The translations under genes were made by a program, and so were the position numbers. From NCBI GenBank assembly GCA_017466445.1, contig JAFTUC010000011.1, positions 1-39,713 of the forward strand: a stretch of DNA of 39,713 bases, read 5' to 3'. A model generated the notes under the pieces. That model ran no database searches, had not been told where the DNA came from, and saw only the letters and a program-made list of their open reading frames with translations. Shown piece after piece: positions 19,295 through 32,070 of this stretch. Source of the stretch: Clostridia bacterium (GTDB taxonomy: Bacteria; Bacillota; Clostridia; Oscillospirales; CAG-272). Each line of letters starts with the position of its first letter. Position 1 is the stretch's first letter.

Positions 19295-21217
19295 ATGAGT
19301 AACGTATTTATAAGCGAAAAGGCTCTTTGGAAAAAGCCTTGCACAGGTCAGAGATATTTACACGGACCATATTCCGAAGAGATCGTATCCATGTGGTGCG
19401 ACGGAAAATTTGTGTTTGAACCGGTCGACCCAAGTGAAGATCCCTATTTTTTTGTGGCCTCGGCATTTAAATTTTTAATAGGCGACGAGTATGAAGAGCT
19501 TGATTTCAAAAAGGTAAAGTACCGTTCCGATAAAGACGGGCTTCCGATCCACGGATTTTATCACAAGATCGGAGATCTGAAGATCGACATGGAGGCTTGT
19601 GCAACGATCGAACGTAGCCCCATAGCATATATAAAGGTCACACTTTCCAATCTCGGAAATAAAAAACTCGAAAAGAAGCTTGCTATCATTACTCGCAGCG
19701 GAAATCTCCGCAAGCTTATGGGAATCGAGACCGACTCATACGGGCACCTTAATACCAACATCGGAAACTGGGGCTTTATTCCCACCGAATTCGTCTATGA
19801 AAACAACACGATACACGACCGGAGCTCGACTGTGATACTTAGTGGCACGGATGATATGCATCCCGCATGGCAGGGGGACGTCAAGGGCAGACCTTGGCAT
19901 CATCGCGGTCTGCTCGACCTCAGCGTTTCTCTCGCATCGGGTGAGGAAAAGACCTTTTTCATTGCCTTTTACAGAACCGGAAAGCACTGTATCACCGATT
20001 TTGATTACGAAAAAGAGAAGGATACTATCAAGGATTTTTGGAAAGGCGAACTAAAAAAGATCCACACCTATCCGAAAAACAACAAGAAAAAATACTACAC
20101 GATGGTAAGAACGCTCGTATCCAACTGTCTTCAGATGTTTGCAACTCCTATCGATGCGGATTTTACCATCCCACGTCAAGGAGGAAATCAATCCTACGTT
20201 TGGGGACAGGAAGCGCTCTCTATGTTCAAGGCGCTCGACAGGATAGGTAATTTTTCCGATTATTCCGAAAAGGTATTCGACTCCTTCTATATCGGTGAGC
20301 TTTACGTAAATGACGGCGATGACAAGGGAAGCTATCGCAAATACAAAAACAACGGTGGCACGGCGTGGGCTACTAACGCATCCGGAATCATGGAAAGTCT
20401 TGCATGGCACACCTATTACAAGACCGAAAAGGAATTTGAAAAATACAAAGAATATATCTATGAGACCTTTATGTACCTAGCAAGGCAGCGAGAGACCACC
20501 AAAAACAGTGATTTCCCGGGATACGGACTCTTTCCTCCGAAAAAATCCTGCGACTGGGCGGAAACATTCCAAACGTGGACTAAGACCGACGCGTGGATGT
20601 TGAAATCCTGCGAAGCGGTCATAAAGGCATTTGAAAAATACAGCGATCCGAGAACGGACGAGCTTAGGAGCGTATACGGCGATTATATGGGATGCGCTAA
20701 AAAAATATTTGATAACGTTGTCAAAAAGTACAGCAAAAACGGAGAGCTTCCTATTCCTATGCACGTGGGCAGAGAGATAAAGGATCCTCAGCAGGAAGGT
20801 CCAAACATCCATGATGGAATCATTATCGTATCTTCCGGTATTTGCCCGATAGACAGTATATACGTTGACGAAATAAGAAATTATTACCGCAATCGCTGTC
20901 TGGTCAAAAACGGTCTGCACGGACTTATGAATGACGGACTTATTCCTTGGCATCAGTGGGATCCTTGGGCGGGTCACGTCTGGTATACCGGCTTTGTAGA
21001 GCAGGATTGGTTTGACGTATGTATCAAGCGCGGAGAATTTGTTGAAGCGAAGGAGACCTTGGACGGATCATTAAAGTACAGCATGACCAAAGAATTTTAC
21101 TGCGTCGAAAGATATGCTGACAACGATCCGTACTTCACGCCATGGACCCCCAACGCAAGCTGCAACGGGCGTATCATCGATATGATATACGACTATTATG
21201 AGGCGACCGAGATATGA
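19295..21217 (+). CDS. Putative glycosidase of unrecognised family, (alpha/alpha)6-barrel type
   Basis: 640 residues, no signal peptide. Residues ~1-240 are beta-rich (SPIAYIKVTLSNLG, KTFFIAFYRTG), as in the N-terminal sandwich domains of GH15/GH65/GH94-like enzymes. Residues ~260-640 are helical and rich in Trp, Asp and Glu (GQEALSMFKALDR, DWAETFQTW, NDGLIPWHQWDPWAGHVW, FTPWTPNASCNGR), as in six-hairpin glycosidases. I cannot assign a CAZy family or catalytic pair with confidence; acidic residues in DWAETFQTW and in WHQWDPW are candidates. It stands alone between a promoter and a terminator, next to GH2 and GH127 genes, so a role in glycan breakdown is likely. Confidence 0.7.
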   Translation: MSNVFISEKALWKKPCTGQRYLHGPYSEEIVSMWCDGKFVFEPVDPSEDPYFFVASAFKFLIGDEYEELDFKKVKYRSDKDGLPIHGFYHKIGDLKIDMEACATIERSPIAYIKVTLSNLGNKKLEKKLAIITRSGNLRKLMGIETDSYGHLNTNIGNWGFIPTEFVYENNTIHDRSSTVILSGTDDMHPAWQGDVKGRPWHHRGLLDLSVSLASGEEKTFFIAFYRTGKHCITDFDYEKEKDTIKDFWKGELKKIHTYPKNNKKKYYTMVRTLVSNCLQMFATPIDADFTIPRQGGNQSYVWGQEALSMFKALDRIGNFSDYSEKVFDSFYIGELYVNDGDDKGSYRKYKNNGGTAWATNASGIMESLAWHTYYKTEKEFEKYKEYIYETFMYLARQRETTKNSDFPGYGLFPPKKSCDWAETFQTWTKTDAWMLKSCEAVIKAFEKYSDPRTDELRSVYGDYMGCAKKIFDNVVKKYSKNGELPIPMHVGREIKDPQQEGPNIHDGIIIVSSGICPIDSIYVDEIRNYYRNRCLVKNGLHGLMNDGLIPWHQWDPWAGHVWYTGFVEQDWFDVCIKRGEFVEAKETLDGSLKYSMTKEFYCVERYADNDPYFTPWTPNASCNGRIIDMIYDYYEATEI

Positions 21218-21237
21218 TCTGCTAACATCTCTATAAC

Positions 21238-21275
21238 AAAAAATCGATGCAACTAACCGTTGCATCGATTTTTTT
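21238..21275. terminator. Bidirectional terminator between convergent units
   Basis: AAAAAATCGATGCAAC (21238-21253) and GTTGCATCGATTTTTT (21259-21274) form a 16-bp stem with a five-base loop, followed by T. It ends both the glycosidase gene and the long minus-strand TasA-like operon. Confidence 0.92.
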
Positions 21276-21287
21276 ATTCAAATAATA

Positions 21288-21857
21288 TCAGTTTGATGAC
21301 GAAACGTTAACGACCGGCAGCGGTTCTCCGTCTGCAACGGCAGAGCCTACCGCCTTACCCTCGGTAGAAGCCACAGAGGTTCCCCAGCAAGGGATAAACT
21401 GTATTACGTTTCCGTCCTCAAGTCCGGTTATCTCGAGATATATGATCTCATCGGGCGTTTTTTTCGTTTCTATTTGCGACGTAAAGACAGTCGATCTGAC
21501 ATTGCCGAGGCTATCTGAAACTACTATCTTGCAGTATCCCGTGGTAGCACTGCCCGTCGCGTCGAATTTCAGCTTAAGTGACGTTTTCGCACCGCTTACA
21601 ACGTAGGTACTATCGGCAAGCTCCGTGTAAGATCCGTTATCCTCATATGAGATATCGATATCGTAATTAGCCGACGTAAGCTTATTCGAAGCGGTCGCCT
21701 GCGAGGACGAGAAATACGCATACGCGGAAATCCCCATTGCGAGCAGACAAATTATAACGATTGCGCAGGAGGAGAATATCCGAGCCGTAAAGACTTTATC
21801 GCTCACGTTTTCGCCGTCACGGACTTCAAAAAAGTCCTTATAAAGTTTTTTGAGCAC
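21288..21857 (-). CDS. Small SipW-type signal-bearing secreted protein (last gene of fibre locus)
   Basis: 189 residues from a GTG at 21857, supported by AAAGGAGG eight bases upstream. A 25-residue N-terminal arm precedes a hydrophobic stretch (~27-47), which ends ISAYAYFSSSQATASN. This is a divergent version of the LAWFTD motif found after SipW-dependent signals in TasA/camelysin proteins. The mature part is ~140 residues of predicted beta-sheet (YDIDISYED, TSLKLKFDATGS). It has only two Cys. The protein is probably cleaved by one of the two locus signal peptidases and exported. No family match beyond the signal; minor fibre subunit or tip protein is a guess. Confidence 0.72.
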   Translation of the reverse strand: MLKKLYKDFFEVRDGENVSDKVFTARIFSSCAIVIICLLAMGISAYAYFSSSQATASNKLTSANYDIDISYEDNGSYTELADSTYVVSGAKTSLKLKFDATGSATTGYCKIVVSDSLGNVRSTVFTSQIETKKTPDEIIYLEITGLEDGNVIQFIPCWGTSVASTEGKAVGSAVADGEPLPVVNVSSSN

Positions 21858-21892
21858 GGATCTTACCTCCTTTCCGCTTTTGTCAAATCAAA

Positions 21893-22546
21893 TTACTCGG
21901 GTATTTTATCTATCGTTCCCTTTTGTGAAGCAAAGACCTTTATTCCGAGATCTATAGACGGTGCCAGACCGTTTCTGTAATTAGCGGCATTATCGACGCT
22001 TTTAGGCATATGAACGACAAGCGCTACGTAGACCGCACTATCCTGAGTTTCATTCGCGTCGAGCTCGCCGCGCTGCGAGTAATTTGCAAGATCGTACAGT
22101 GCGTACTGCTTTGCAAGCTCTCTGTCGAGCTCTGCCTCGCTATCGCTGAATATCGCGCCGAACTTAAGATAATCGGGAAGATGTATCACTTTTCCAAGCT
22201 CGTTCATACCGTCAACGGTATTATCGACAGTGACCGAAAGTCTATAGTCGAAATCTATCTCGCCTTTATTCTCGATACGCAGATAAACGACCTGAACGTA
22301 TCCGGGCTCGTAAAGAGCGCTATCGTCGAAAACAGCGGTGTTTTCATCGACCGGAAGATATTTTCCGTCCACCTTATACGAGACCTCAAGGTCGAGAACT
22401 CCTATATCAAAGGTGTTTCGCGTAGCGGGCGTTGTATCGGTAAACCAAGCGAGAGAGGTAGCCGTCCCGAGAAAAGCCCAGACAGCTATCATAAACAGGC
22501 TGACCGAAAGTGCGAATTTTGTGAGTGTTCTGGTTTTTATAGTCAT
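21893..22546 (-). CDS. TasA/camelysin-like secreted protein
   Basis: 217 residues. The signal ends TSLAWFTDTTPATRNTFDIG, the classic SipW-dependent junction followed by the first TasA strand (VLDLEVSYKVDG). EPGYVQVVYLRIENKGEIDFDYRLSV is the usual TasA-family strand pair, and the middle contains a helical insert (ELDRELAKQYALYDL). In Bacillus this family polymerises to biofilm fibres or acts as a surface protease-like protein (camelysin). The domain order closely resembles the N-terminal part of the 754-residue protein at the head of the operon, including YVALVVHMPKSV versus YVALIIYMPTTV. Its ATG overlaps the previous stop by four bases. Confidence 0.85.
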   Translation of the reverse strand: MTIKTRTLTKFALSVSLFMIAVWAFLGTATSLAWFTDTTPATRNTFDIGVLDLEVSYKVDGKYLPVDENTAVFDDSALYEPGYVQVVYLRIENKGEIDFDYRLSVTVDNTVDGMNELGKVIHLPDYLKFGAIFSDSEAELDRELAKQYALYDLANYSQRGELDANETQDSAVYVALVVHMPKSVDNAANYRNGLAPSIDLGIKVFASQKGTIDKIPE

Positions 22547-23250
22547 CTCAAAGCACCTCCTGAAGCATCGGAGTTACCTTGATCGTCTTTTTCTATATCA
22601 TTTGCCTCGTCATCCTTTTTACGCTTCTTAACAAGGATGATAATGATGACGAATACGACCGCAACTGCCACAAAGAGCAGTATTACGTTTCTGAGTCCGT
22701 CTCCTGTTTCGGGGGACGGATCCTCGGGCTCTACGGGAAATTCTTCAACCCTGAACTCCCAAGTAAGATAACCTATCTTTTTGACGTACTCGCTTCCGAG
22801 CGACGTCGGCACAGTAAGAGTTACGTTCAGATCGGCCTCGCCGCCCGAATATATGAGACCGATATAGGTCCAATCGGTAAGCTGAGCGCTCTGATCAGCG
22901 GGTGCTTCGAACATAACGGTATCCGTGATACCCTCAACCTTAAGGCTGAGCTGAGAGAGAAAGTCACGCGATTCCTCGTCTGCACCGAGAGAACGCATAT
23001 ATATCCTTACTTTTACTTTTTCGGATGCATCGTTTCTGACCATGATCTTTTGTTTGATCACATCACCGGGCATAACATCCTTCATGTCGGTGAAAAGGTC
23101 GGTGGGGGAATAGTCGCTACCGGGACTGAAAATGAAATTACCCGAATCTCCGCTATACGTTACGTTTCCTTTGGCAAACGCCGAAAGGCCACTAACGGAC
23201 ATAACGGTAATCACAGCGAGAACAGCGGCTATTATTTTTATTTTTTTCAT
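22543..23250 (-). CDS. Membrane/cell-wall anchored accessory protein with SPETG sorting-like motif
   Basis: 235 residues. An ordinary Sec signal peptide (KKIKIIAAVLAVITVMSVS, cut near SAFA) replaces the SipW type. The extracellular part (~25-175) is beta-rich and includes PGDVIKQKIMVRNDASEKVKVRIYM, as in TasA-like and DUF11-type beta-sandwiches. The tail has SPETGDGLRN, then a ~20-residue hydrophobic segment, then KKRKK and ~25 polar residues. SPETG fits a sortase motif of the xPxTG type, although the tail after the basic residues is longer than usual; the protein may instead stay a membrane anchor. No sortase gene is in the window. It could be the base that holds the fibre to the cell, similar in role to TapA. 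Confidence 0.78.
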   Translation of the reverse strand: MKKIKIIAAVLAVITVMSVSGLSAFAKGNVTYSGDSGNFIFSPGSDYSPTDLFTDMKDVMPGDVIKQKIMVRNDASEKVKVRIYMRSLGADEESRDFLSQLSLKVEGITDTVMFEAPADQSAQLTDWTYIGLIYSGGEADLNVTLTVPTSLGSEYVKKIGYLTWEFRVEEFPVEPEDPSPETGDGLRNVILLFVAVAVVFVIIIILVKKRKKDDEANDIEKDDQGNSDASGGALR

Positions 23251-23263
23251 ATCCGCACCTCAC

Positions 23264-23824
23264 TTAATCTGCAGGCCAGCCGAGAGCTTCCCATGCATTT
23301 TCGGCAGGGTTGTTCTCACTCTGAACAGCCTGTGCGGAAACGGTGAGCGTAAGTACAGATCCGATAAAATCGTTATCTACCTTATCACCTATGATCTCAA
23401 CCTGATTAAAAAACGGCTTCGTGGTCTCGCCGGGATCCACGATATCAATGTAGTAATAGAATCCGTCATCCTTGAGGATCCAATTTTTAGTATCGATATC
23501 GATCCCCAGGCAATCCTTTGCACTGAGATCCTTTCCGCTTACTCCGCTGACGAGCTTCACTCTCAGATAAAAGGGATGCTCGCAAGCGCTTTCAATGGTT
23601 ACTATCTTTCCGACGACCTGACCCGGCATAACGGGTATTCCCTCCTCGGGAAAATCGGATCCGTCGGACTGCTTTTCATGAATTATAAACTGAATGTTTC
23701 CGGAGGTAACGACGTTATTTGCCTGACCGACAGTTGTATAAAAAGCAAGCGTGCCCTGCGTAAGCATTGAAAAAATTATTGCGACCATAGCTATTGCAAA
23801 CAGTCTGAACTTGATTTTTTTCAT
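23264..23824 (-). CDS. TasA-like secreted protein with SipW-type signal
   Basis: 186 residues. The signal (KIKFRLFAIAMVAIIFSMLTQ) ends GTLAFYTTVGQANNVVTSGN, a variant of LAWFTD with Phe-Tyr in place of Trp-Phe. Next comes a TasA-type strand pattern: IQFIIHEKQ, IPVMPGQVVGKIVTIESACEHPFYLRVKL. Two mature Cys are present (AC and DC), unlike most of its neighbours. AAAGGAGG precedes the ATG. The gene starts just after a 16-bp perfect palindrome that separates it from the upstream gene, and is followed 13 bases later by the anchored-protein gene. Structural component or adaptor is the likely role. Confidence 0.82.
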   Translation of the reverse strand: MKKIKFRLFAIAMVAIIFSMLTQGTLAFYTTVGQANNVVTSGNIQFIIHEKQSDGSDFPEEGIPVMPGQVVGKIVTIESACEHPFYLRVKLVSGVSGKDLSAKDCLGIDIDTKNWILKDDGFYYYIDIVDPGETTKPFFNQVEIIGDKVDNDFIGSVLTLTVSAQAVQSENNPAENAWEALGWPAD

Positions 23825-23866
23825 TTATCGTTTCCTCCTTTCATGAAATTTTAGTGCTTCCACTTA

Positions 23867-23901
23867 TTTTCGAATATCCCTTTGTAAGGGATATTCGAAA
23901 A
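23867..23901. repeat. 16-bp perfect palindrome with 3-base loop inside the fibre operon
   Basis: TTTTCGAATATCCCTT (23867-23882), loop TGT, and AAGGGATATTCGAAAA (23886-23901). In the mRNA (minus strand) the 3' arm ends in A, not U, so it is not a standard terminator. It lies between the 350-residue protein gene and the next gene. A stabilising 3' hairpin or RNase processing site that separates a highly expressed subunit from downstream genes is likely. Confidence 0.75.
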
Positions 23902-23915
23902 TTTGCGGACTGAAA

Positions 23916-24968
23916 TCAGTTGCTAAAAGGGAATACAAGAACGTTCTGGAAGTAGTCCTCGTAATTAGCAACGTCGAAGATGGGCGTTCCGTTGAGCGTT
24001 GTATCGGTGGAGATATAAACGCAAAGTCCGCCTGCACCCTCAGCCTTTACGACATAAGCGCCGTCAGGAACGGTAAGATTGCAACTGTCGATAATAATCG
24101 TAGCGTTGTTAAATTCTGTGGGAACAACAACAAATGCTTCGTTAACAGTTGCAGTTACACCGGTGAAGGATCCCTCTGCGGTACCATTCTCACCGATTGT
24201 GTAGTAAACGTCAGCAGTAGCGTTCTCGTTTACCTTTCCGTTAGCCTTGATATCCTCGTCAGCATAGCCGGCGACGGTACCCTCTGCATCCCAGTAAAGC
24301 TCGAAAGCTCTCTGAGCGGTAGTTACCATTGCGCCGGGAGTTGCGGGATCACCAAGATGCTCGGACTGGATAACCTGACCGAGAATGCTTACCTCAAAAT
24401 CTCTCATTTCCTGAGCCTGCTCAAGGGTAAGACCGGTAGGAATTACTACTTCCTTAAAGAGCTCTTCGGTGGTAGCACCTGCTGCAAGCTCAGTGTTGTA
24501 GTAGTAAATGTAAACGAGCTCATCGTCAACCGTATAGAGGATGTCTGTGAGAGTCCAGGTGTCTGCAGTTCCGGGGAGGAACTTGTCAGCATCGCCCCAT
24601 GCTCCTTCCATTGCCTCTCTGAGGATACGAGCCTCAGTAACGGTAACGATAGCACGAACAAACTGAGGATGGATTCCGGTGTTGGTAAGGTAAGGAGCCT
24701 TACTGAAACGCTGACCGGGAAGAATATCCTCATAGATTGCTCCTTCGTCATCAGCGGTATCCTTGCCATAGTCTACACCGTCAACGGTCTCCCACACGTC
24801 AATACCGAAAACATCATCGGGATCGGTGTTGGAGTCACCAACGTAGAACTCGTTGGTTACAGAATCGCTTGCGGTGAACCATGCAAGAGTACCCATGGAA
24901 AGGATAGCAACAAGACAGAGAGCAACAGCAACAACAACAATCTTCTTCTTTGTGGACATGTTTTTCAT
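23916..24968 (-). CDS. TasA-like major secreted protein candidate
   Basis: 350 residues. The signal (KKKIVVVAVALCLVAILSM) ends GTLAWFTASDSVTNEFYVG. The mature N-terminal part is acidic and camelysin-like: YEDILPGQRFSKAPYLTNTGIHPQFVRAIVTV is the conserved strand pair in SipW-dependent proteins. Residues ~215-350 add a second beta-rich, Cys-poor domain (NATADVYYTIGENGTAEGSF, NNATIIIDSCNLTVPDGAYVVKAEG) resembling a partial beta-helix. The gene uses frequent codons such as GAG, GTT and ACT. It is flanked by 113 bases with a palindrome upstream and by a stable hairpin downstream, a layout that suggests high expression. Likely a fibre subunit. Confidence 0.85.
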   Translation of the reverse strand: MKNMSTKKKIVVVAVALCLVAILSMGTLAWFTASDSVTNEFYVGDSNTDPDDVFGIDVWETVDGVDYGKDTADDEGAIYEDILPGQRFSKAPYLTNTGIHPQFVRAIVTVTEARILREAMEGAWGDADKFLPGTADTWTLTDILYTVDDELVYIYYYNTELAAGATTEELFKEVVIPTGLTLEQAQEMRDFEVSILGQVIQSEHLGDPATPGAMVTTAQRAFELYWDAEGTVAGYADEDIKANGKVNENATADVYYTIGENGTAEGSFTGVTATVNEAFVVVPTEFNNATIIIDSCNLTVPDGAYVVKAEGAGGLCVYISTDTTLNGTPIFDVANYEDYFQNVLVFPFSN

Positions 24969-25005
24969 TTTCTTTTTACTCCTTTCTTTAAGATTTTATT
25001 TTAAC

Positions 25006-25017
25006 GCCGTATACGGC
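25006..25017. promoter_or_regulatory. 12-bp palindrome GCCGTATACGGC upstream of 350-residue gene
   Basis: A perfect dyad in AT-rich DNA, about 40 bases before the downstream start codon and 65 bases after the previous stop. It could be an operator or a small mRNA hairpin. No well-spaced promoter boxes go with it. Confidence 0.35.
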
Positions 25018-25081
25018 AATAAAATACAATCATTCAAGAAAAATTTATTTTATTTTTTGATTACCGAATAAATCTCTGCGC

Positions 25082-25861
25082 TTACGGAGTTACGAGTGAG
25101 AAGTCGGGGAGACTGTCGACTCCGCTTCCGAAGCCTCCAATAAAAGCTTCTTCGGCGCTTCCGAATCCCTCGACCTGGATCGCCTGGGTCGCAACGTAGA
25201 TATCGAGTCTGTCTCTCGCGTCGAAGCCGCCTACCGTCTGACCGTTCATTACGAAGTAAGCATCCGAAATATCTCCGTTTGCATCGCGTATAACGTCAAG
25301 ATCAGCGATCATATCGATATAAACGCCTTCGATAACGGGAGCTGTCGTTGCTTTGGGTGCAAGGACCGTATTATATCTGTAAAGATATACGTTATAGAGC
25401 ATACCGTCGATAATAACGTCAAGGAATTTTTCCTGATCGCCCGCGAGCGAATTATCAACGTCTGTAACGAGCGTCCAACCGTTAGCGGCAAGATTTTCGT
25501 CATAGATATGTACCACTCCTGCGTTATCAAGAGAAGCGGGAACTGCTACATACGTTTGAACATAAGCGTTATTCTTGCCGATATTCTCGACAGTTACGAT
25601 CTTATCCTGAAAATTATCATCATTTATTGCATTGTTGTTATCAATAACGGGAATGAGCATCTTGTCGTTTTCAAAGGGCTCAAGATTTCCGTTTTCGTCG
25701 TACTGCTGCTCGTGCTGAACGATCTCGATGCTTCCTATCGTGAAGACGTTCTTCACCTCGTCGGTATCCATAAACCAAGCAAGAGACCCGCCGATCATGG
25801 CGACAGCGGCTATTGCAACGACGATACTGACAACTGCTATCAGCTTCTTTTTAGTCGTCAT
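25082..25861 (-). CDS. TasA-like secreted protein
   Basis: 259 residues from the ATG at 25861 (MTTKKKLIAVVSIVVAIAAV), which has GGAGGAG nine bases upstream. The longer frame upstream of it is Arg-rich and out of phase with the real upstream gene. The signal ends GGSLAWFMDTDEVKNVFTIG and is followed by IEIVQHEQQYDENG, then IVTVENIGKNNAYVQTYVAVP, the TasA-family strand pair. The C-terminal ~110 residues are acidic and end GFGSGVDSLPDFSLVTP. The start overlaps the end of the signal peptidase gene by 11 bases. Exported and matured by that peptidase is the simple expectation. Confidence 0.85.
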   Translation of the reverse strand: MTTKKKLIAVVSIVVAIAAVAMIGGSLAWFMDTDEVKNVFTIGSIEIVQHEQQYDENGNLEPFENDKMLIPVIDNNNAINDDNFQDKIVTVENIGKNNAYVQTYVAVPASLDNAGVVHIYDENLAANGWTLVTDVDNSLAGDQEKFLDVIIDGMLYNVYLYRYNTVLAPKATTAPVIEGVYIDMIADLDVIRDANGDISDAYFVMNGQTVGGFDARDRLDIYVATQAIQVEGFGSAEEAFIGGFGSGVDSLPDFSLVTP

Positions 25862-26585
25862 TTTTGATCTCCTCCGATGCTGTATTTTCAATATCTTCTG
25901 TAGCTTCCTCTGCCTCAGCTTCCGACGTCTGCGCCGTAGCATGAGCTGCATTAAGCGCCTCTGCCTCGGCGGCACGTCTTCTCAGCTCCTCAAGCTCTGC
26001 GAGAAGCTCCTCATTGGATGCGGACGCGGCAGGTGCGGCAGGTGCGGTAGGTTTCTGCTCGCCGTCCTTCTTTTTGAAGAAATCGGGGAGGAAGACGAGA
26101 AGTATCAGCAGAAGTCCGACTCCTATAGCAATATAGGTTCCGGGGGGATTCTGAATAAAATCGGCAACGTATCCGAGAAGCGGAATGCTGAACACGGGAA
26201 CGCCGATAACGTTCTTGAAGAGGACCGGTTGTCTGTCCTCGTCCTTGTTCGCATCACCCTTTGTGTATATCTTCTGCTCCTCGTAGTCGATCCTTACGAC
26301 GCGGTGAGTTGCGACGGTAAGAGTGTTATCGACAACGAAGGTTATCGGAGTACCGACCTTCACGGGAGAATCCTTACTGTTTGTTATTTCGTTTACCTTG
26401 ACCTCGTCAACGTAGATCAGGTCGCCCTTGCTGTATTTCGGCTCCATACTTCCCGAAATTACGTTAAAAACACGAAGACCGATTATTCGTGAGCCAAGCA
26501 AAAAGATCGCAAACATAACGAGAATGACTACAAGCACGGTGGAAACGATATTCCACACCTTTTCAAATTTAGTTTTCGTTTGCAT
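25851..26585 (-). CDS. sipW: SipW-like type I signal peptidase with coiled-coil tail
   Basis: 244 residues from the ATG at 26585; a GTG 15 bases earlier is less likely. One TM segment (~14-31), then catalytic Ser46 in ISGSMEP, His94 in ATHRV and Asp111/115 in KGDANKDED. This Ser-His-Asp set with His instead of Lys marks the ER/archaeal-type subfamily, whose B. subtilis member SipW (Ser47, His87, Asp106) cuts TasA. A second TM (~148-168) is followed by ~75 cytoplasmic residues with a Pro/Ala-rich linker and heptads (EELLAELEELRRRAAEAEALNA). Its own position, directly before a TasA-like gene, fixes the substrates. The coiled-coil tail is absent from B. subtilis SipW as I know it. Confidence 0.92.
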   Translation of the reverse strand: MQTKTKFEKVWNIVSTVLVVILVMFAIFLLGSRIIGLRVFNVISGSMEPKYSKGDLIYVDEVKVNEITNSKDSPVKVGTPITFVVDNTLTVATHRVVRIDYEEQKIYTKGDANKDEDRQPVLFKNVIGVPVFSIPLLGYVADFIQNPPGTYIAIGVGLLLILLVFLPDFFKKKDGEQKPTAPAAPAASASNEELLAELEELRRRAAEAEALNAAHATAQTSEAEAEEATEDIENTASEEIKNDD

Positions 26586-27384
26586 CCTTCTCCACCTCAC
26601 TGTCGTTTGTACTTTCCTGTGCGGTCTCGTCCTTGGGTGCGGTCGGCTCTCCCGATCCCGTCACCGTTGCCGTCGAAACACCCTGTGCCTCAAGCTGAGC
26701 CTTAAGCGCCTGGAGCTCCTTCATCATTTCAAGAGAAGCCTGACGCTCCTGCTCGAGCTGGATACGCTCTTCCTTCATAGCGTCGGTCTGCTCTGCCTTG
26801 TAGCGCTTGAACAGGCTGATGCTCTTTATCGCCTGATATATTATAAGAAGCATAAAGGGGGTGAATATGCAAATGAAGTATCCCTGCGGCTGCTTTAAGA
26901 AGTTGAAGAAGTTTCCGACGTTCGGGATATGGGTGACGTACTTACCTCTTATAAACTCGTAAGTAACGACGGTCTCATCGCTCGTATCTGTGTTAGTACC
27001 GTAGGTAACGAATCCGGGGCGACCCTCAGCGGTGGTCTTTCTGTCGATCGCGTGGGTTATATTGCTTCCGTACGGAACACCCGACGGATCGTTTTTGTTA
27101 AGTGACTGGAAGGTAATGACGTCTCCCGGCTTAAGGGTGGAGGGGTCCTTTACGTTCTTGACTATTACAAGGTCACCGGCATTGAAATGAATGGGGAAAT
27201 CCTTGTTTTTCTCGGACTCGCTCATCGAGTCAGTAAGTACGATAAACGCCTTGAAGCCGAAGATCTCTCTATCGTTGCGGTCGAACACGGAGACCGAGAT
27301 GATAGTGAATACCATCATAAAGATAGCAAGAGCCACAACGAGATAAACAAGTATGTTTTTTATTATATTGAGCGCCTTTTTCAT
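26569..27384 (-). CDS. Second SipW-like signal peptidase, coiled-coil tail
   Basis: 271 residues from the ATG at 27384 (MKKALNIIKNI), chosen because GGAGG lies just upstream and overlaps the earlier in-frame ATG. TM1 ~11-31, Ser53 in LTDSMSE, His111 in ITHAIDR, and YGTNTDTSD where SipW has the Asp motif. LKPGDVITF between them is typical. A long insertion around FPIHFNAGDL makes the catalytic box unlike its neighbour's. TM2 (~182-202) leads to a heptad-rich tail (EERIQLEQERQASLEMMKELQALKAQLEAQ) and an acidic end. It overlaps the next peptidase gene by 17 bases. Catalytic set complete; division of labour with the other peptidase unknown. Confidence 0.88.
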   Translation of the reverse strand: MKKALNIIKNILVYLVVALAIFMMVFTIISVSVFDRNDREIFGFKAFIVLTDSMSESEKNKDFPIHFNAGDLVIVKNVKDPSTLKPGDVITFQSLNKNDPSGVPYGSNITHAIDRKTTAEGRPGFVTYGTNTDTSDETVVTYEFIRGKYVTHIPNVGNFFNFLKQPQGYFICIFTPFMLLIIYQAIKSISLFKRYKAEQTDAMKEERIQLEQERQASLEMMKELQALKAQLEAQGVSTATVTGSGEPTAPKDETAQESTNDSEVEKDANEN

Positions 27385-27485
27385 GCGTTCCTCCATAAAT
27401 GTATTATGTGTAAAAAAGCCGAATACGCCTATTTTTTCATAGAAAAACGGGCATGTTCCGTTCTTTTACGGGAGAAAATTCCCTT

Positions 27486-27517
27486 TGTCCCACCCGCCCG
27501 CGTGAGCGGGTGGGACA
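27486..27517 (-). other. GC-rich hairpin between beta-helix protein and signal peptidase genes
   Basis: TGTCCCACCCGC (27486-27497) pairs with GCGGGTGGGACA (27506-27517) around an eight-base loop. The minus-strand sequence after it is AAAGGGAATTTTC, without a U-tract. It lies just after the stop of the first gene of the operon. Partial termination or 3'-end protection of the first transcript would make that protein more abundant than the peptidases. Confidence 0.7.
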
Positions 27518-27535
27518 GAAAGGAGAGATTTTCAA

Positions 27536-29800
27536 TTAATAAACGTCAACGCCGTCAACTACAACGTTAAGCTTATCGGTACCCATGGAGTTCTTGTTTG
27601 CCCAGAGGGTAGTACCGGTATTGATGCCCTTGTCGTTGATCTCGTAACCGTTAACGGTGGTGTTATTAACGATGAGCTCATAAGACTTGCCATAATCGTT
27701 ACCGATCTCGATAGCTGCCTTAAGGTCGGTTAGACCGCCGTTATCGTTGAAGGTGCATCCGTTTACGGTAAGCTTGGTGTTAGCCGTACCGTAGAGAAGG
27801 AGTGCCTTACCGTCAGAGTTGAATGTACAGTTATTGAAGGTTGCAGTAGGAGCGCCCCAAGTCCAGATGTTGTAAACGTCTCCAGTTACGTTGAATGTGC
27901 AGTTGTTGAATACACTATCTCCGTAAAGTGTATAGGTTCCGTTGAAGGTGCAGTTGTTGTAAGTTGCATTGCATCTTGCGTAACCGATATAAGTGGAGCT
28001 GTTGGTGGTGATCGTAATGTTCTCGAAGGTTACAGTAGATCCGTCGAGACCGTAATCACAGTTTTCTCCGCCGGTACCAACCTTAGTTACAGCAACAGTG
28101 GTGTCACCGGTTCCTACAAATGTAAGACCGGTCTTGCCCTGTGCGGCGGAAGGAATGACGTAATTACCGGAGCTAAGGAATACGGTGTCAGCGCCATCTG
28201 CGATTGCAGTACCAAGCGCAGCGTTGTCATCTGCAGTCGCCGCCTTGGTAGATATAGTCACATTCTTTATGGTGTTATCGAATACGTTTGCAGGAGCAAG
28301 TGCATTAGAAACAACAGTGCCGGGCTGATATGCAGAAGTATCTGCTGCACCTACTGTTACGGTATCAACAGTGTTGTTGCGAACCTTGACGTTAACGTTT
28401 ACCTGTGCTATAAGACCTGCAGCGCGGTTGCCTGCGTATACAGTTACATTTTTGACGGTGTTATGCGCAACTGTTGCCTCTGATCCTGAAGTTACAACAT
28501 AACCTGCGAGACCGCCTGCTTCCTTACCAGTTGCAACTACGGAACTGTCGATAACCTTACAGCCGTTAACTGCGCCATAGGAATAACCAACTATACCACC
28601 GACATAGTCGACACCGGAAATTGTTGCGTTCTTTACGGTAACATTAGAAATGTTGTGATCCGCAGAGCCTATAAGAGCACCGTTTGTAGCCTTAACATTT
28701 TCCAGAGTAAGATTGGAGAATGTAGCGCGAGCCTTATCAGCAAACAAACCGGTTGTTGTATTGATATTGCGAATAGTGTGATAGTTGCCATCAAAGGCAG
28801 AAGCGCCGGTGCTCTGACCAAGTACAATGTTAACGGGCGCGAGTGCCTTGTTATTGAGATCAATGTCGGTCTCAAGGCTTACTGTCCACTTACTGCTGTA
28901 GTAGTAATTAGCGCCTGCACCGTTTGCATAGTTGGTGTAGGTAGTTCCATTACCGTCGGTGTAGAACTCAGCCCACTTTGCGCTCAGAGTGCTGAGGTAT
29001 GCAAATGCAGCGGCATCCTTAACGTGAACGGTCTGCGTTGCGCCGTCAACTACAAGAGTCTCGGGCATCTCTGCAGGAACTGTGCCGTCCCAAACGGAGT
29101 AAGCAGCATTTTTATCATAATCATTTCCGAAGCTATCGTTTTCAGCAGCGAGCTGAGTTGCGTAGAGCTCTACGCCCATCTCGATGGAGGGAGCCTCCGT
29201 TCCGGTCTTGTAGTTAGCCTCATTACCAACGGTAGTGGGCATGTAGATGATAAGTGCTACATAGTCCTCGTCGTTTGCGCCATCCTTGGCATCAAGACTC
29301 GTGGTCTCGCCGTTATACGCTCTGAGTCCCATCTCGGTTCCTGCAGCAGCGATAGCGGTATCGCGGGTGTAAGTACCAACTTCAGCCTCGGCGATATCAA
29401 CTACCTTGAATACGAGATAATCGGAGAGATAGAATATCTTGCCGTCAACGTTTGTTCCGGCAACTTCGCTGTAAACGTTAACATTCAGCTGATATTTGAG
29501 AGCGAGAGTTCCAAGGTTGGATACCTTAAGGTAAGCCACCTCGGTGTGTCCGGGCTCCCAAAGGGCGTTAGGATCAAAAATATCCTCTGCGCCTTCAACG
29601 GATTCCCATCTGTCAAATTTGCCGTTATCGAACTTGGCATATTCAAGTTCAACGTCGAGATTTCCGGCAACGATCTTGTTCTTTCCGCTCTTTACCGAAT
29701 CGGTGAACCAAGCGAAAGTGGTGCCTATGAGCATAGTGAAGCAAAGTACCAAGGATATAACGCTTGCAACCAATGCTCTTCTGGTTGTCTTTTTCGTCAT
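27536..29800 (-). CDS. Large TasA-like/beta-helix fusion surface protein
   Basis: 754 residues. The signal ends GTTFAWFTDSVKSGKNKIVAG, the SipW-type junction. Residues ~30-230 are a TasA/camelysin-like domain (DVELEYAKFDNG, EPGHTEVAYLKVSNLGTLALKYQLNV, YVALIIYMPTTVGNEANY). Residues ~235-330 form a linker with an aromatic patch. From ~330 the protein is repetitive: GLUG-like turns (VGGIVGYSYGAVNGC, AGGLAGYVV) around 397-445 and at ~608-680 four rungs of the NNCTFN type (YNNCTFNGT, FNNCTFNVT, FNNCTFNSD, NGCTFNDNG), typical of a right-handed parallel beta-helix. There is no wall anchor. AAGGAGG precedes the ATG. It is probably a fibre subunit or cap carrying a glycan-binding or adhesive beta-helix. 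Function inferred from architecture. Confidence 0.88.
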   Translation of the reverse strand: MTKKTTRRALVASVISLVLCFTMLIGTTFAWFTDSVKSGKNKIVAGNLDVELEYAKFDNGKFDRWESVEGAEDIFDPNALWEPGHTEVAYLKVSNLGTLALKYQLNVNVYSEVAGTNVDGKIFYLSDYLVFKVVDIAEAEVGTYTRDTAIAAAGTEMGLRAYNGETTSLDAKDGANDEDYVALIIYMPTTVGNEANYKTGTEAPSIEMGVELYATQLAAENDSFGNDYDKNAAYSVWDGTVPAEMPETLVVDGATQTVHVKDAAAFAYLSTLSAKWAEFYTDGNGTTYTNYANGAGANYYYSSKWTVSLETDIDLNNKALAPVNIVLGQSTGASAFDGNYHTIRNINTTTGLFADKARATFSNLTLENVKATNGALIGSADHNISNVTVKNATISGVDYVGGIVGYSYGAVNGCKVIDSSVVATGKEAGGLAGYVVTSGSEATVAHNTVKNVTVYAGNRAAGLIAQVNVNVKVRNNTVDTVTVGAADTSAYQPGTVVSNALAPANVFDNTIKNVTISTKAATADDNAALGTAIADGADTVFLSSGNYVIPSAAQGKTGLTFVGTGDTTVAVTKVGTGGENCDYGLDGSTVTFENITITTNSSTYIGYARCNATYNNCTFNGTYTLYGDSVFNNCTFNVTGDVYNIWTWGAPTATFNNCTFNSDGKALLLYGTANTKLTVNGCTFNDNGGLTDLKAAIEIGNDYGKSYELIVNNTTVNGYEINDKGINTGTTLWANKNSMGTDKLNVVVDGVDVY

Positions 29801-29957
29801 TTTCTTTTCCTCCTTATATAAATTTTAATAACGAAAATGTATTCCTCCGCCGTATTTGGGCGAAAATACCTAAAATAACGTCCGCGCAGAGAGAATGCCG
29901 CCTATTTTGCCTCGTTTTTGCGCGCAAAATGATATGTATCGACTCTACGACTTCTAA

Positions 29958-29986
29958 AGTATAGCACACTTCTTTCAAAAAATCAA
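29958..29986 (-). promoter_or_regulatory. Sigma-A promoter of the TasA-like/SipW operon
   Basis: Minus-strand TTGATT (29986-29981), 17-base spacer, TATACT (29963-29958). The predicted start site leaves a leader of ~150 bases before the ATG at 29800, which contains the dyad TTTTGCGCGCAAAA. I do not recognise a riboswitch in the leader. Confidence 0.72.
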
Positions 29987-30379
29987 TAGTTTAACCGAAT
30001 ATTTTTTTGTTTTTTCCTAAATCGGGCACTTTTTGTGAAAATTTTATAGATTTTACTATGTCTTATCCTTCATTTTTTGTAAGCCGTTTATCGATAAAAA
30101 GTACACAATTTCGCCGTATTTTTCGCTATTTTTAAATAAAACGGCGCTTTTTCGGCAGATGTCCGCATTTTCGGACATTATGCGTTATGTACAATACTTT
30201 TCGGTTAGTTATTTTTTTAACAACGTTTTAACATTTTTTCTTACTGTAACGCCGTTACCGTGGGAGTCTTGTTCCTTACGCGAATCAACGCGGAAAGCGG
30301 TAAGGAACTCGGGAGCGGATCTACAGAAGCAAAAGTCAACAAAAATTACAGCAAGTTTCAAAAAATACGCTTTTATTGC
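29987..30379. other. Geneless divergent region between fibre operon and SCIFF unit
   Basis: About 390 AT-rich bases without a convincing gene on either strand. Two hairpins are visible: ATGTCCG/CGGACAT at 30159-30178 and GTTCCTTAC/GTAAGGAAC at 30271-30308. They could belong to small RNAs, to a far-upstream leader, or to regulator sites for either side. Short open frames here have no ribosome sites. Confidence 0.5.
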
Positions 30380-30408
30380 TTGACTTATCAAAAAAAGCGT
30401 GCTATAAT
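30380..30408 (+). promoter_or_regulatory. Sigma-A promoter of SCIFF peptide gene
   Basis: TTGACT (30380-30385), 17-base spacer, perfect TATAAT (30403-30408), 33 bases before the peptide ATG; GGAGG is the ribosome site. Confidence 0.85.
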
Positions 30409-30441
30409 AAGACAAATATAAAATTTTACGGAGGAAAAACC

Positions 30442-30600
30442 ATGCGTATAAAGACTCTCGAGACCAAGAATCTCTGCGAAAGCGCAAAGAACGGCGGTTG
30501 CGGCGAATGCCAGACCTCTTGTCAGTCCGCTTGCAAGACCAGCTGCGGTATCGCTAATCAGCAGTGCGAAAGCACCAAGAAGGAAAAGGAAAGCAAGTAA
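30442..30600 (+). CDS. scfA: SCIFF ribosomally made peptide precursor (six-cysteine type)
   Basis: 52 residues. The leader MRIKTLETKNL and the Cys-rich core with GECQTSCQSACKTSC match the SCIFF family of Clostridia, in which a radical SAM enzyme makes Cys-to-alpha-carbon thioether bonds. The family pattern has six Cys; here they fall at 20, 23, 27, 31, 35 and 42. A seventh Cys at position 12 lies in the leader/core border (KNLCESAK), where other members usually have a non-Cys residue, to my recollection. The C-terminal KKEKESK tail is also longer than usual. The maturase gene follows 81 bases later after a hairpin. The biological role of the modified peptide is unknown; the family is nearly universal in Clostridia. 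Confidence 0.95.
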   Translation: MRIKTLETKNLCESAKNGGCGECQTSCQSACKTSCGIANQQCESTKKEKESK

Positions 30601-30615
30601 TCCGATTTCGCTCCG

Positions 30616-30643
30616 AATGCCGCCTCTTTCAGGCGGCATTTTT
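30616..30643 (+). terminator. Hairpin with T-tract between SCIFF peptide and maturase genes
   Basis: AATGCCGCCT (30616-30625) and AGGCGGCATT (30631-30640) with a five-base loop and TTTTT overlapping the arm end. It probably acts as a leaky terminator, so that the peptide is made in excess over the maturase. Confidence 0.8.
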
Positions 30644-30681
30644 GGTGAGCTTTTACATTATTTATTTAAGGAAGTATATTT

Positions 30682-32070
30682 ATGATACACGCATACAAGC
30701 TCGGCGGTATGAACATAGTTCTCGACACCTTTTCGGGATCTATCCACGTTGTGGACGATATCGCGTACGACATCATAACGAGCTACGAAACCAAGGAAAA
30801 AGAAGAAATAATCTCGGAGATCCTCGCAAAATATCCCGATCGCGCGGATGCGACACGCGAGGAGATTCTTGAATGTCTTGATCAGATAGAGGGTCTGAAG
30901 AGTGCGGGAAAGCTTTTTGCACCCGACACGTTCGAGCCTATGGCTGACACGCTCAAGAAAAAAACGTCGGGTGTTATCAAGGCGCTCTGTCTGCACGTCG
31001 CGCACACCTGCAATTTAAACTGCGAATACTGCTTTGCAAGTCAGGGCAAATATCACGGTGAGCGCGCCATAATGAGTCTTGAGGTCGGAAAGCGCGCGCT
31101 CGATTTTCTTATTGAAAATTCGGGACCCCGAAGAAATCTCGAGGTAGACTTCTTCGGCGGCGAGCCTCTTATGAATTTCGACATGATAAAGGAGCTCGTA
31201 AAGTACGCACGGGAGAGAGAAAAGGAGTGCTCTAAGAATTTCAGATTCACTCTGACGACAAACGGACTTCTTATCGACGACGACGTCATCGATTTTGCCA
31301 ATCGCGAGATGAGCAACGTCGTGCTGAGTCTTGACGGACGAAGGGAGATCCACGATCGCTACCGCATCGATTACGCCGGAAACGGAAGCTGGGAGCGGAT
31401 CGTTCCGAAGTTCCAAAAGCTCGTAGAGGCGCGCGGGAACAAGAATTATTACATGCGCGGAACCTTTACGCACGCAAATCCCGATTTCCTTTCGGATATT
31501 CAGACGATGCTCGATCTCGGATTCACCGAGCTCAGCATGGAGCCCGTGGTCAGCGCTCCCGGAGACGCGTCCGCGCTCACCGAGGAGGATCTTCCGATCG
31601 TTCTCGAGCAGTACGAAAAGCTCGCTGAGCTCATGCTAAAGCGCCATCGCGAGGGGCGTCCGTTTACCTTCTATCATTACATGATCGACCTTAAGGGCGG
31701 ACCCTGCATCTACAAGCGAGTTTCGGGCTGCGGCTCGGGAAGCGAATACATGGCGGTCACTCCGTGGGGAGATCTTTACCCCTGCCACCAGTTTGTCGGC
31801 GAAGAAAAGTTCAGACTCGGCGATATCTGGACCGGAGTTACGAATCTTGAAAAGCAATCCGAATTTTCCTCCTGCAACGTATACACGCGTCCCGAATGCA
31901 AGGACTGTTGGGCAAAGCTTTACTGCTCGGGCGGTTGCGCGGCAAACGCGTATCACTCGACAGGCTCTGTAAACGGAGTCTACAAGTACGGCTGCGAGCT
32001 CTTCAAGAAGCGAATGGAATGTGCCATCATGCTTGAAGCGGCAAAGCTTGAGGAACTTGAGGAAGAATAA
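30682..32070 (+). CDS. scfB: Radical SAM SCIFF peptide maturase
   Basis: 462 residues. The N-terminal ~90 residues are a peptide-recognition (RRE/PqqD-like) region. The radical SAM CX3CX2C is Cys110, Cys114, Cys117 (CNLNCEYC), followed by DFFGGEPLMNF. The C-terminal SPASM domain carries the auxiliary-cluster Cys: Cys342, Cys350 in SGCGSGSEY, YPCHQF, and CKDCWAKLYCSGGC. This is the expected arrangement for thioether-forming SCIFF maturases such as CteB. It uses SAM to abstract hydrogens from core residues of the peptide encoded just upstream. AAGGAAG is the ribosome site. No transporter or protease gene for the product follows. Confidence 0.95.
   Translation: MIHAYKLGGMNIVLDTFSGSIHVVDDIAYDIITSYETKEKEEIISEILAKYPDRADATREEILECLDQIEGLKSAGKLFAPDTFEPMADTLKKKTSGVIKALCLHVAHTCNLNCEYCFASQGKYHGERAIMSLEVGKRALDFLIENSGPRRNLEVDFFGGEPLMNFDMIKELVKYAREREKECSKNFRFTLTTNGLLIDDDVIDFANREMSNVVLSLDGRREIHDRYRIDYAGNGSWERIVPKFQKLVEARGNKNYYMRGTFTHANPDFLSDIQTMLDLGFTELSMEPVVSAPGDASALTEEDLPIVLEQYEKLAELMLKRHREGRPFTFYHYMIDLKGGPCIYKRVSGCGSGSEYMAVTPWGDLYPCHQFVGEEKFRLGDIWTGVTNLEKQSEFSSCNVYTRPECKDCWAKLYCSGGCAANAYHSTGSVNGVYKYGCELFKKRMECAIMLEAAKLEELEEE

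Follow-up and report, generated by a model that had tools for sequence, protein, structure and literature searches.

A nine-gene SipW-type locus of a Clostridia bacterium that may build a composite surface filament

Genes and features of the locus

The window analysed here is the whole stretch of 39,713 nucleotides (nt) of contig JAFTUC010000011.1 from a Clostridia bacterium (assembly GCA_017466445.1). Its subject is a row of nine open reading frames on the minus strand, running from position 29800 to 21288 and named g1 to g9 in that order. A preliminary description, made from the sequence alone, had proposed that these genes form a TasA/SipW locus building a surface fibre. The nine-gene row was borne out, as were by eye the six SipW-type signal junctions it had read: AWFTD in g1, AWFMD in g4, AWFTA in g5, AFYTT in g6, AWFTD in g8 and AYFSS in g9.

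Two of the genes encode signal peptidases of the SipW class, as had been claimed. The product of g2 (26569..27396) is a divergent member of TDSMS type and that of g3 (25851..26600) is of SGSMEP type, scoring 64.7 and 81.7 bits, respectively, with TIGR02228 (cut-off 51.85); g2 is further distinguished by an insert, FDRNDREIFG, and a Glu/Gln-rich cytosolic tail. Ser57, His115 and Asp140 (g2 numbering) are invariant across ten aligned peptidases, namely g2, g3 and eight others. We take these to be the catalytic residues, and because they are retained the reading of g2 as a dead peptidase was rejected. Both proteins fall below the cut-off (190) of the Bacillus SipW equivalog NF046067, with 68.8 bits for g2 and 78.5 for g3. 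The window corresponds to contig C4 of the draft genome (2.09 Mb in 52 contigs), in which six SipW-class peptidases pass the cut-off.

The remaining seven genes encode secreted proteins. The largest, g1 (27536..29800, 754 amino acids, aa), carries a g8-type, TasA-like N-terminal domain with its junction, followed by a right-handed β-helix (PF13229, 33.6 bits; cut-off 25.9), and is an adhesin-like subunit. SipW-type secreted subunits are encoded by g4 (25082..25861, 259 aa) and g5 (23916..24968, 350 aa), and a small BsaA-like subunit by g6 (23264..23824, 186 aa). The stand-alone g1-type domain of g8 (21893..22546, 217 aa) may serve as an adaptor that links g1-type subunits to those of the shaft. 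In g9 (21288..21857, 189 aa), which is perhaps wall-associated, about 27 residues precede the hydrophobic stretch and the ectodomain is divergent. The SipW-type signal model TIGR04088 (cut-off 19 bits) is passed by g1 (21.8), g4 (23.1) and g5 (28.2), is missed by g6 (16.2) and g8 (16.4), and leaves g9 unmatched. The one anchored member previously proposed was likewise confirmed: g7 (22543..23250, 235 aa) has an ordinary-looking signal peptide with no SipW-type junction, a TasA-type proline box, and a PETGD motif followed by a membrane span and a basic tail, and is a probable wall-anchored base.

The spacing of the genes depends on two start codons. For g4 the most likely start is ATG 25861, where a normal signal peptide opens, and the GTG 25975 of the open reading frame list was dropped; g3 starts at GTG 26600 or possibly at ATG 26585. 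With these starts g2 and g3 overlap by 17 or 32 nt, g3 and g4 by 11 nt, and g7 and g8 by 4 nt. The gaps are 139 nt (g1/g2), 113 nt (g4/g5), 91 nt (g5/g6), 13 nt (g6/g7) and 35 nt (g8/g9). The tight packing described earlier thus holds for three overlaps, not four, and for the two short gaps, while three gaps measure 91–139 nt. Very stable hairpins occupy two of these, at 27474..27533 between g1 and g2 (−39.1 kcal/mol, z −7.1) and at 23859..23909 between g5 and g6 (−29.4 kcal/mol, z −9.1), both on the minus strand; for each, 0 of 200 shuffles folded as well. The g1/g2 hairpin is possibly an attenuator, a terminator or a stabiliser of the messenger RNA.

A consensus scan placed a promoter-like site, TTGATT-17-TATACT, 5′ of g1 (29958..29986, minus strand), although the number of such sites did not exceed that in shuffles (13 versus 12.4). 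A terminator scan likewise gave no excess (8 versus 9.2 by chance), and an Rfam search of positions 21000–31500 returned nothing informative.

Two core families and two peptidase modules

The relationships among the subunits were examined by hhalign on mature cores, for which column-shuffled controls gave 0–2%; whole-protein alignments were dropped as evidence of homology because signal peptides inflate them. Two core families emerged, g4, g5 and g6 matching one another at 99% and g1 matching g8 at 100%. The core of g7 aligned with g6 at 92% and with g4 at 77–81% over about 30 columns, the link between the g1 and g6 cores was weak (41–57%), and the g9 core showed no link to the other cores of the locus.

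The gene-order survey that the preliminary description had called for was carried out, and the order of the block recurs on many contigs of other species. Of the 396 genomes of the order, a g7 profile matched 44 at E ≤ 1e-6, and in 22 of those 44 the score exceeded 200 bits. Gene order was then read with window-derived profiles in 36 stretches: the window, six of 16 earlier stretches and 29 from the g7 search (L031–L034 were left out, and G026 was read as L144). One layout has a single g3-type peptidase, a varying number of g4/g5/g6-like genes and usually a large protein, followed by g6 and g7. The other is that of the window, with two peptidases. All 21 one-peptidase loci checked carry a g3-type gene and no g2. 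Among three of their large proteins tested, one has a VWA and one a DUF5979 domain over the cut-off. Two neighbours 3′ of g7, those in L081 and L085, were tested by Pfam and proved to be sortases; a sortase in this position was rejected as a rule, several neighbours of about 220 aa looking otherwise from the start of their sequences, by eye.

Profiles of the other module gave a complementary picture. With that of g8, 22 of the 396 genomes matched at E ≤ 1e-25. Nine genomes hold ten true g8 copies, which score above 290 bits and all adjoin g7; the remaining matches are g1-like. The g2 profile matched 33 of 396 at E ≤ 1e-35, and g2 is present in 19 of the 22 genomes with the g1/g8 family against that background (Fisher p 9e-21, ancestry ignored); the three without it are G150, G169 and G370, the last two of which have the match near a contig end. 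A third layout, g7′-g6′-g2-g1(n)-g9′, was read in 20 further g2 neighbourhoods, of which 19 had no g3 match and 16 had a g1 match; L145 and L149 stop just past g2.

A scan of the genome contigs for g2 yielded 44 loci: 28 of the window type, 14 lacking g3 and two cut off beside g2. Wherever the genes are present, the 28 window-type loci follow one order, g2-(g1)n-g3-(g4)-(g5)-(g1)n-g6-g7-g8-g9. Twelve reach g8, with g6-g7-g8 in 12/12 and g9 in 11/12 (not in L200), and in the other 16 the sequence ends 0–1435 nt past the last recognised gene. A g1/g8-family gene on the same strand lies 3′ of g2 in 39 of the 42 typed loci. The exceptions are L174, with such a gene on the opposite strand, and the loci L192 and L193, which end about 1.8 kilobases (kb) after g2. 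Furthermore, g6 adjoins g7 or g7′ in most loci read.

Taken together, the core families and the locus layouts indicate that peptidase type and substrate family travel together, g3 with g4, g5, g6 and g7, and g2 with g1 and g8. Each module also occurs alone, as g3 with g4–g7-like genes, a system similar to the sipW-bsaABCRSD operon of Clostridium perfringens, and as g7′-g6′-g2-g1-g9′. The window locus is, on well-supported genomic grounds, a composite in which both are interleaved, and the peptidases may differ accordingly in what they cleave. The ordered multi-subunit structure first proposed is upheld insofar as distinct SipW-type subunits recur in a conserved order together with an anchored member; the two peptidases look less like steps of one pathway than like those of two separately existing systems, each with its own substrate family.

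The genes might instead serve two separate structures that simply lie side by side, a fibre made by g3, g4, g5, g6 and g7 and a surface coat made by g2, g1, g8 and g9. This would fit the finding of either module alone in other genomes and the weak link between the cores of the two families, but the genes are interleaved (g2-g1-g3-g5-g1-g6-g7-g8-g9) and do not form two blocks, and g8 adjoins g7 in all ten copies found; we therefore regard it as unlikely. The composite locus, read as one system, has natural one-module versions, so that substrate choice by SipW-class peptidases could be tested on a single operon with two peptidases and two subunit families.

The intergenic hairpins are shared in part. 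Gaps of at least 40 nt in 18 of the 28 window-type loci were folded against 15 shuffles each. Strong hairpins were found in the gaps g1-g6 (10/10), g1-g3 (5/5), g1-g1 (8/10) and g3-g5 (9/13); they were rarer in g5-g6 (1/3) and g2-g1 (1/7) and absent from g5-g1 (0/10), g2-g3 (0/3) and g4-g5 (0/3). Within the g6–g9 stretch of the relatives two gaps were long enough, and neither held one. Since a predicted terminator with read-through is described 3′ of bsaA in Clostridium perfringens, in the part of PMC7395162 available, uneven dosage of the locus genes is a fair reading, and the hairpins 3′ of g1 and 5′ of g6 would reduce downstream expression.

As to habitat, 31 of the 44 g2 loci are labelled as coming from herbivore gut, 29 from goat, sheep, deer, buffalo or yak and two from ‘Lapin’, read as rabbit. 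The layout thus recurs in Clostridia, mostly uncultured, of a setting where adherence to plant fibre or to the host could matter. The g2 loci also include a complete isolate genome, Blautia parvula NBRC 113351 (L203), with the g3-less version.

TasA-type marks and the filament reading

In TasA, the first mature residues form the strand that completes the next subunit (PMC9674648, in part), and the subunit interface holds a conserved proline box (PMC10151520, in part). Both marks were sought in the locus families, with L207 (TasA-like) and L206 (CalY-like), two genes labelled from their PF12389 matches and neighbours, as yardsticks. The junction-to-strand spacing of TasA, within one residue and with a background of 0.001–0.013, is kept in g1 (57/57), g4 (6/6), g6 (14/15, a sixteenth sequence without a junction being excluded), g8 (10/13) and g9 (11/14). 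The proline box (PG...N), present in both yardsticks, occurs in g6 (13/16), g7 (12/14), g8 (10/13) and g1 (38/57); in g1 the pattern also turns up in a later stretch in 4 of 56.

Family models gave weaker signals for the bodies of the proteins. Searched as isolated proteins, g1 (22.3 bits) and g4 (22.2) fell just short of the TasA/camelysin family PF12389 (Peptidase_M73; cut-off 22.5), which they pass in the genome search (26.1 and 22.9); isolated g5, g6 and g8 gave 12.6–13.8 bits, and g7 and g9 had no match at E ≤ 1. The TapA model TIGR04087 (cut-off 80) matched only g6, at 13.3 bits, so that no TapA passed its cut-off. Overall, the resemblance to TasA is clear in the export region and moderate across the body of the proteins. 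For g9, a LysM domain in the L198 orthologue (46.2 bits) and acidic, Pro/Thr-rich tails in some relatives point to the cell wall; the window g9 has neither feature, and its own wall association is therefore a guess.

The name M73 itself comes from a metallo-endopeptidase, β-helix folds are common among glycan-active proteins, and g1 has such a helix in a gut setting. The locus could accordingly be thought to export SipW-dependent enzymes or binding proteins by a common route, with no filament at all. We consider this improbable, as no enzyme family passes its cut-off for g4–g9 and the TasA marks come with an anchored partner. A filament is the likely reading, and strand exchange between its subunits is plausible from the motifs.

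The anchored partner fits a base. Its ordinary signal peptide spares it presenting a freed strand, and the PxTG motif is conserved, Pro180, Thr182 and Gly183 being invariant in 14 aligned g7 orthologues. The draft genome gave one sortase match, on another contig (C15). Since only g7 carries PxTGD (by eye) and the sortase lies outside the cluster, the locus does not qualify as one for Spa-type sortase-assembled pili. Separately, the g7′ protein of the g3-less layout has a Spy0128-like isopeptide (FctA) domain in L203 (8334–9389) and L204 (8213–9382), the two tested, which ties TasA-type loci to a domain of covalent pili; the L204 protein passes the anchor model.

The preliminary description had set the locus against the three-gene operon of Bacillus, which is not the sole comparator, as the systems of C. 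perfringens (PMC7395162) and Bacillus cereus (PMC13082335) are already multi-component. All comparisons below refer to the parts of these accounts available, in which the TasA-type systems of Bacillus and C. perfringens have one peptidase each. The C. perfringens sipW-bsaABCRSD operon is similar in combining a SipW-class peptidase with several secreted proteins, of which BsaA, a distant relative of the window g6, forms filamentous polymers, and it has a putative sortase gene beside sipW. It differs in its single peptidase, its two-component system and a BsaA without LPXTG, and no β-helix partner such as g1 is mentioned there (PMC7395162). The tapA-sipW-tasA operon of B. subtilis shares the SipW-type junction, the donor-strand spacing, the proline box and a helper or anchor protein next to the main subunit. 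It has three genes and one peptidase, and TapA is SipW-processed, unlike g7 with its ordinary signal peptide and PxTGD anchor (PMC9674648, PMC10151520). In B. cereus (sipW-tasA/capP/calY) two TasA-type subunits form a heteropolymer with a wall-retained third protein, and polymerisation is sortase-independent; one SipW processes all three, and neither a β-helix subunit nor a PxTGD anchor is mentioned (PMC13082335).

On this basis we read the locus, with a probability of roughly 0.6, as encoding a heteropolymeric surface filament of TasA/camelysin/BsaA type that arose from merged SipW modules and has base, adaptor and adhesin parts. Module A would consist of the peptidase g2 with the g1/g8 family (and g9), and module B of the peptidase g3 with the subunits g4, g5 and g6 and the anchored g7. 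Precursors would be exported by Sec, and each peptidase would cut its own family at the A-W/F-F junction, thereby freeing an N-terminal strand. Polymerisation would follow outside the cell, most likely by insertion of this strand into a neighbouring subunit. The shaft would be made of g4, g5 and g6 on a base of g7, which the genome's sortase would attach to the wall. In addition, g8 would act as adaptor for g1 adhesins bearing the β-helix, and g9 may be a second wall-associated part.

An alternative that we find doubtful is a plain biofilm-matrix locus, in which each protein, like BsaA and TasA, polymerises on its own or serves as a matrix protein, and the peptidases are interchangeable duplicates. 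BsaA made in Escherichia coli yields very stable polymers without BsaB or BsaC (PMC7395162, in part), and TasA-type proteins are matrix scaffolds (PMC9674648, in part). Lone g1-like genes, moreover, exist. Different subunits in a fixed order, and peptidase types mostly split by substrate family, speak for the composite filament instead. The C-terminal parts of four lone g1 relatives tested comprise a β-helix (L020), leucine-rich repeats (L026) and, in L023 and L024, no family match; such varied ends would be expected of exchangeable adhesins.

Several observations weigh against the composite filament. Five stand-alone g1-like genes (L020, L021, L023, L024 and L026; 734–1262 aa) lie in the same draft genome among unrelated neighbours. 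Scattering of this kind had been named beforehand as counter-evidence, and it was found for g1, whereas the complete block is not scattered and turns up again in order. At the threshold used, no g1/g8 match was obtained in 14 of the 33 g2 genomes; L150 and L152 carry g2 without a nearby g1 match, and in L083, a one-peptidase locus, two g1-family genes lie on the opposite strand. A g1 immediately before g2, as in the window, was seen in no other window-type locus, only in the g3-less L144 and L148. The draft genome is 86.6% complete and 6.3% contaminated. At the protein level, g7 lies just under the LPXTG cut-off of TIGR01167 (15.3 versus 15.9) and below that of PF00746 (15.7 versus 20). Against the BsaA family TIGR04090 (cut-off 60 bits) g6 reaches 33.5, g5 21.1 and g4 15.7 bits. 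The cores are weakly linked to TasA/CalY (0–52% by hhalign, with a two-sequence profile), and the g6, g7 and g8 profiles retrieve no TasA entry from the PDB sequence set. The TasA spacing motif occurs in 0 of 27 g5-family members, and the proline box is rare in g4 (1/6), g5 (3/27) and g9 (1/14) and, among the window's own proteins, present only in g6, g7 and g8. Both patterns were devised after the sequences had been viewed, and homology was the basis for gathering the proteins, so that the counts cannot be taken as independent. The absence of the box from the window g1, g4, g5 and g9, together with the two g2 loci without g1, slightly lowered our confidence in this reading.

Sister copy and candidate promoter switch

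A second gene set is present in the same genome: at one end of contig C22 lie g2-g3-g5-g1, and at one end of C8 lie g6-g7-g8-g9, with the tail of a g1-like β-helix frame 5′ of that g6 (by eye); we think that these are two ends of one sister locus. A third SipW locus, on C15 (L025:6312–14241), combines one peptidase with four small subunits and a protein of 1541 aa that contains Listeria-Bacteroides repeats.

Some g2 loci carry 5′ of g2 a tyrosine recombinase of 276–284 aa (PF00589 in 5/5 tested; only a 112-aa piece in L153), and several also a TetR-type gene (of two examined, one fell just short of its cut-off). For counting, one locus of each duplicate pair was removed (L143=L205, L151=L173, L070=L177, L074=L187). 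A recombinase homologue was then found in 18 of 66 distinct g2 loci, the window excluded, and 17 of these belong to the 52 loci in which 3.5 kb or more of sequence precedes g2; the recombinase of L159 and L160 is placed several kb 5′ of g2. It occurs in 0/21 one-peptidase and 0/5 lone-g1 loci. Inverted repeats adjoin the recombinase in 17 of the 18 (none was found in L186), and the motif pair ACATAAY...RTTATGT is present in 15 of the 18 (L153 and L166 have repeats without the exact pair) and in one of the 48 g2 loci without a recombinase (L154). It is absent from the 21 one-peptidase, the five lone-g1 and 198 shuffled loci.

Promoter-like sites were scored in 18 segments, the 17 repeat-bearing ones and L154, against 40 mononucleotide shuffles (p ≤ 0.1). 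A site faces the operon in four (L176, L198, L153 and L159) and away from it in 12, and L166 and L170 had none better than shuffles. Among the 17 repeat-bearing loci the repeats flank a site in 15, four operon-facing and 11 facing away. Passing sites start 61–96 nt from the arm they face, L154 excepted. Furthermore, L176 and L192, from different hosts, have identical 25-nt arms, and their inner segments score 160 inverted versus 32 direct, a pattern that past inversion would leave. The next-best pairs agree with the promoter calls, L149/L160 being direct and L176/L180 and L176/L179 inverted.

The sister copy has such an arrangement directly 5′ of g2 (L022:6945–8766, i.e. C22:104944–106765), with a tyrosine recombinase (PF00589, 99.1 bits), a TetR-like gene and 27-nt arms of 96% identity separated by 214 nt. 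The promoter-like site between them faces away (p 0.075, 40 shuffles), and the element resembles a promoter switch set to OFF. The two arms are the only places in the genome where the motif occurs. In Blautia parvula NBRC 113351 (L203:6684–7849) the same recombinase family accompanies a 26-nt perfect inverted repeat 5′ of the g2 operon, and the candidate switch looks complete; in a search for the switch among 20 genomes of the genus, no genome other than the query gave a match. These sequence features strongly suggest that the sister copy and about one third of the relatives are phase-variable.

Phase-variable surface loci with an invertible promoter, such as fim of E. coli, are well known. 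The RecV switches of C. difficile (PMC7446863, PMC9286219, in the parts available) resemble the relatives and the C22 copy in placing a promoter-like site within inverted repeats, with a tyrosine recombinase and a surface structure. They differ in that the candidate switch here precedes a SipW/TasA-type operon and is known from sequence alone, and that the window copy has no switch. No paper on a two-peptidase or phase-variable SipW operon was found by title among the best-ranked titles, subscription papers being mostly outside this search, and neither SipW nor TasA nor Blautia occurs in the main text of PMC11892184, a paper on gut invertons. Tentatively, the loci might represent an undescribed class of Gram-positive pilus in gut Clostridia. 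Its marks would be two family-specific SipW peptidases, donor-strand assembly without a pilus sortase, a PxTGD base, exchangeable β-helix or leucine-rich-repeat adhesins and, in about one third of loci, a recombinase-flipped promoter. The Blautia isolate makes phase variation of a TasA-type structure testable in the laboratory.

The window copy has no repeat pair of at least 18 nt at 90% and no motif site. A repeat at 29960–29986 and 30380–30406, considered as a switch, was rejected: it is paired over only 78%, lacks a motif site and looks like two divergent promoters. The promoter-like site upstream of g1 is similar to the promoters within the relatives' switches. Beyond it, divergent from g1 at 30436–32070, lie a frame for a small Cys-rich peptide and then a radical-SAM-like protein, a pair that presumably resembles the SCIFF peptide and its maturase.

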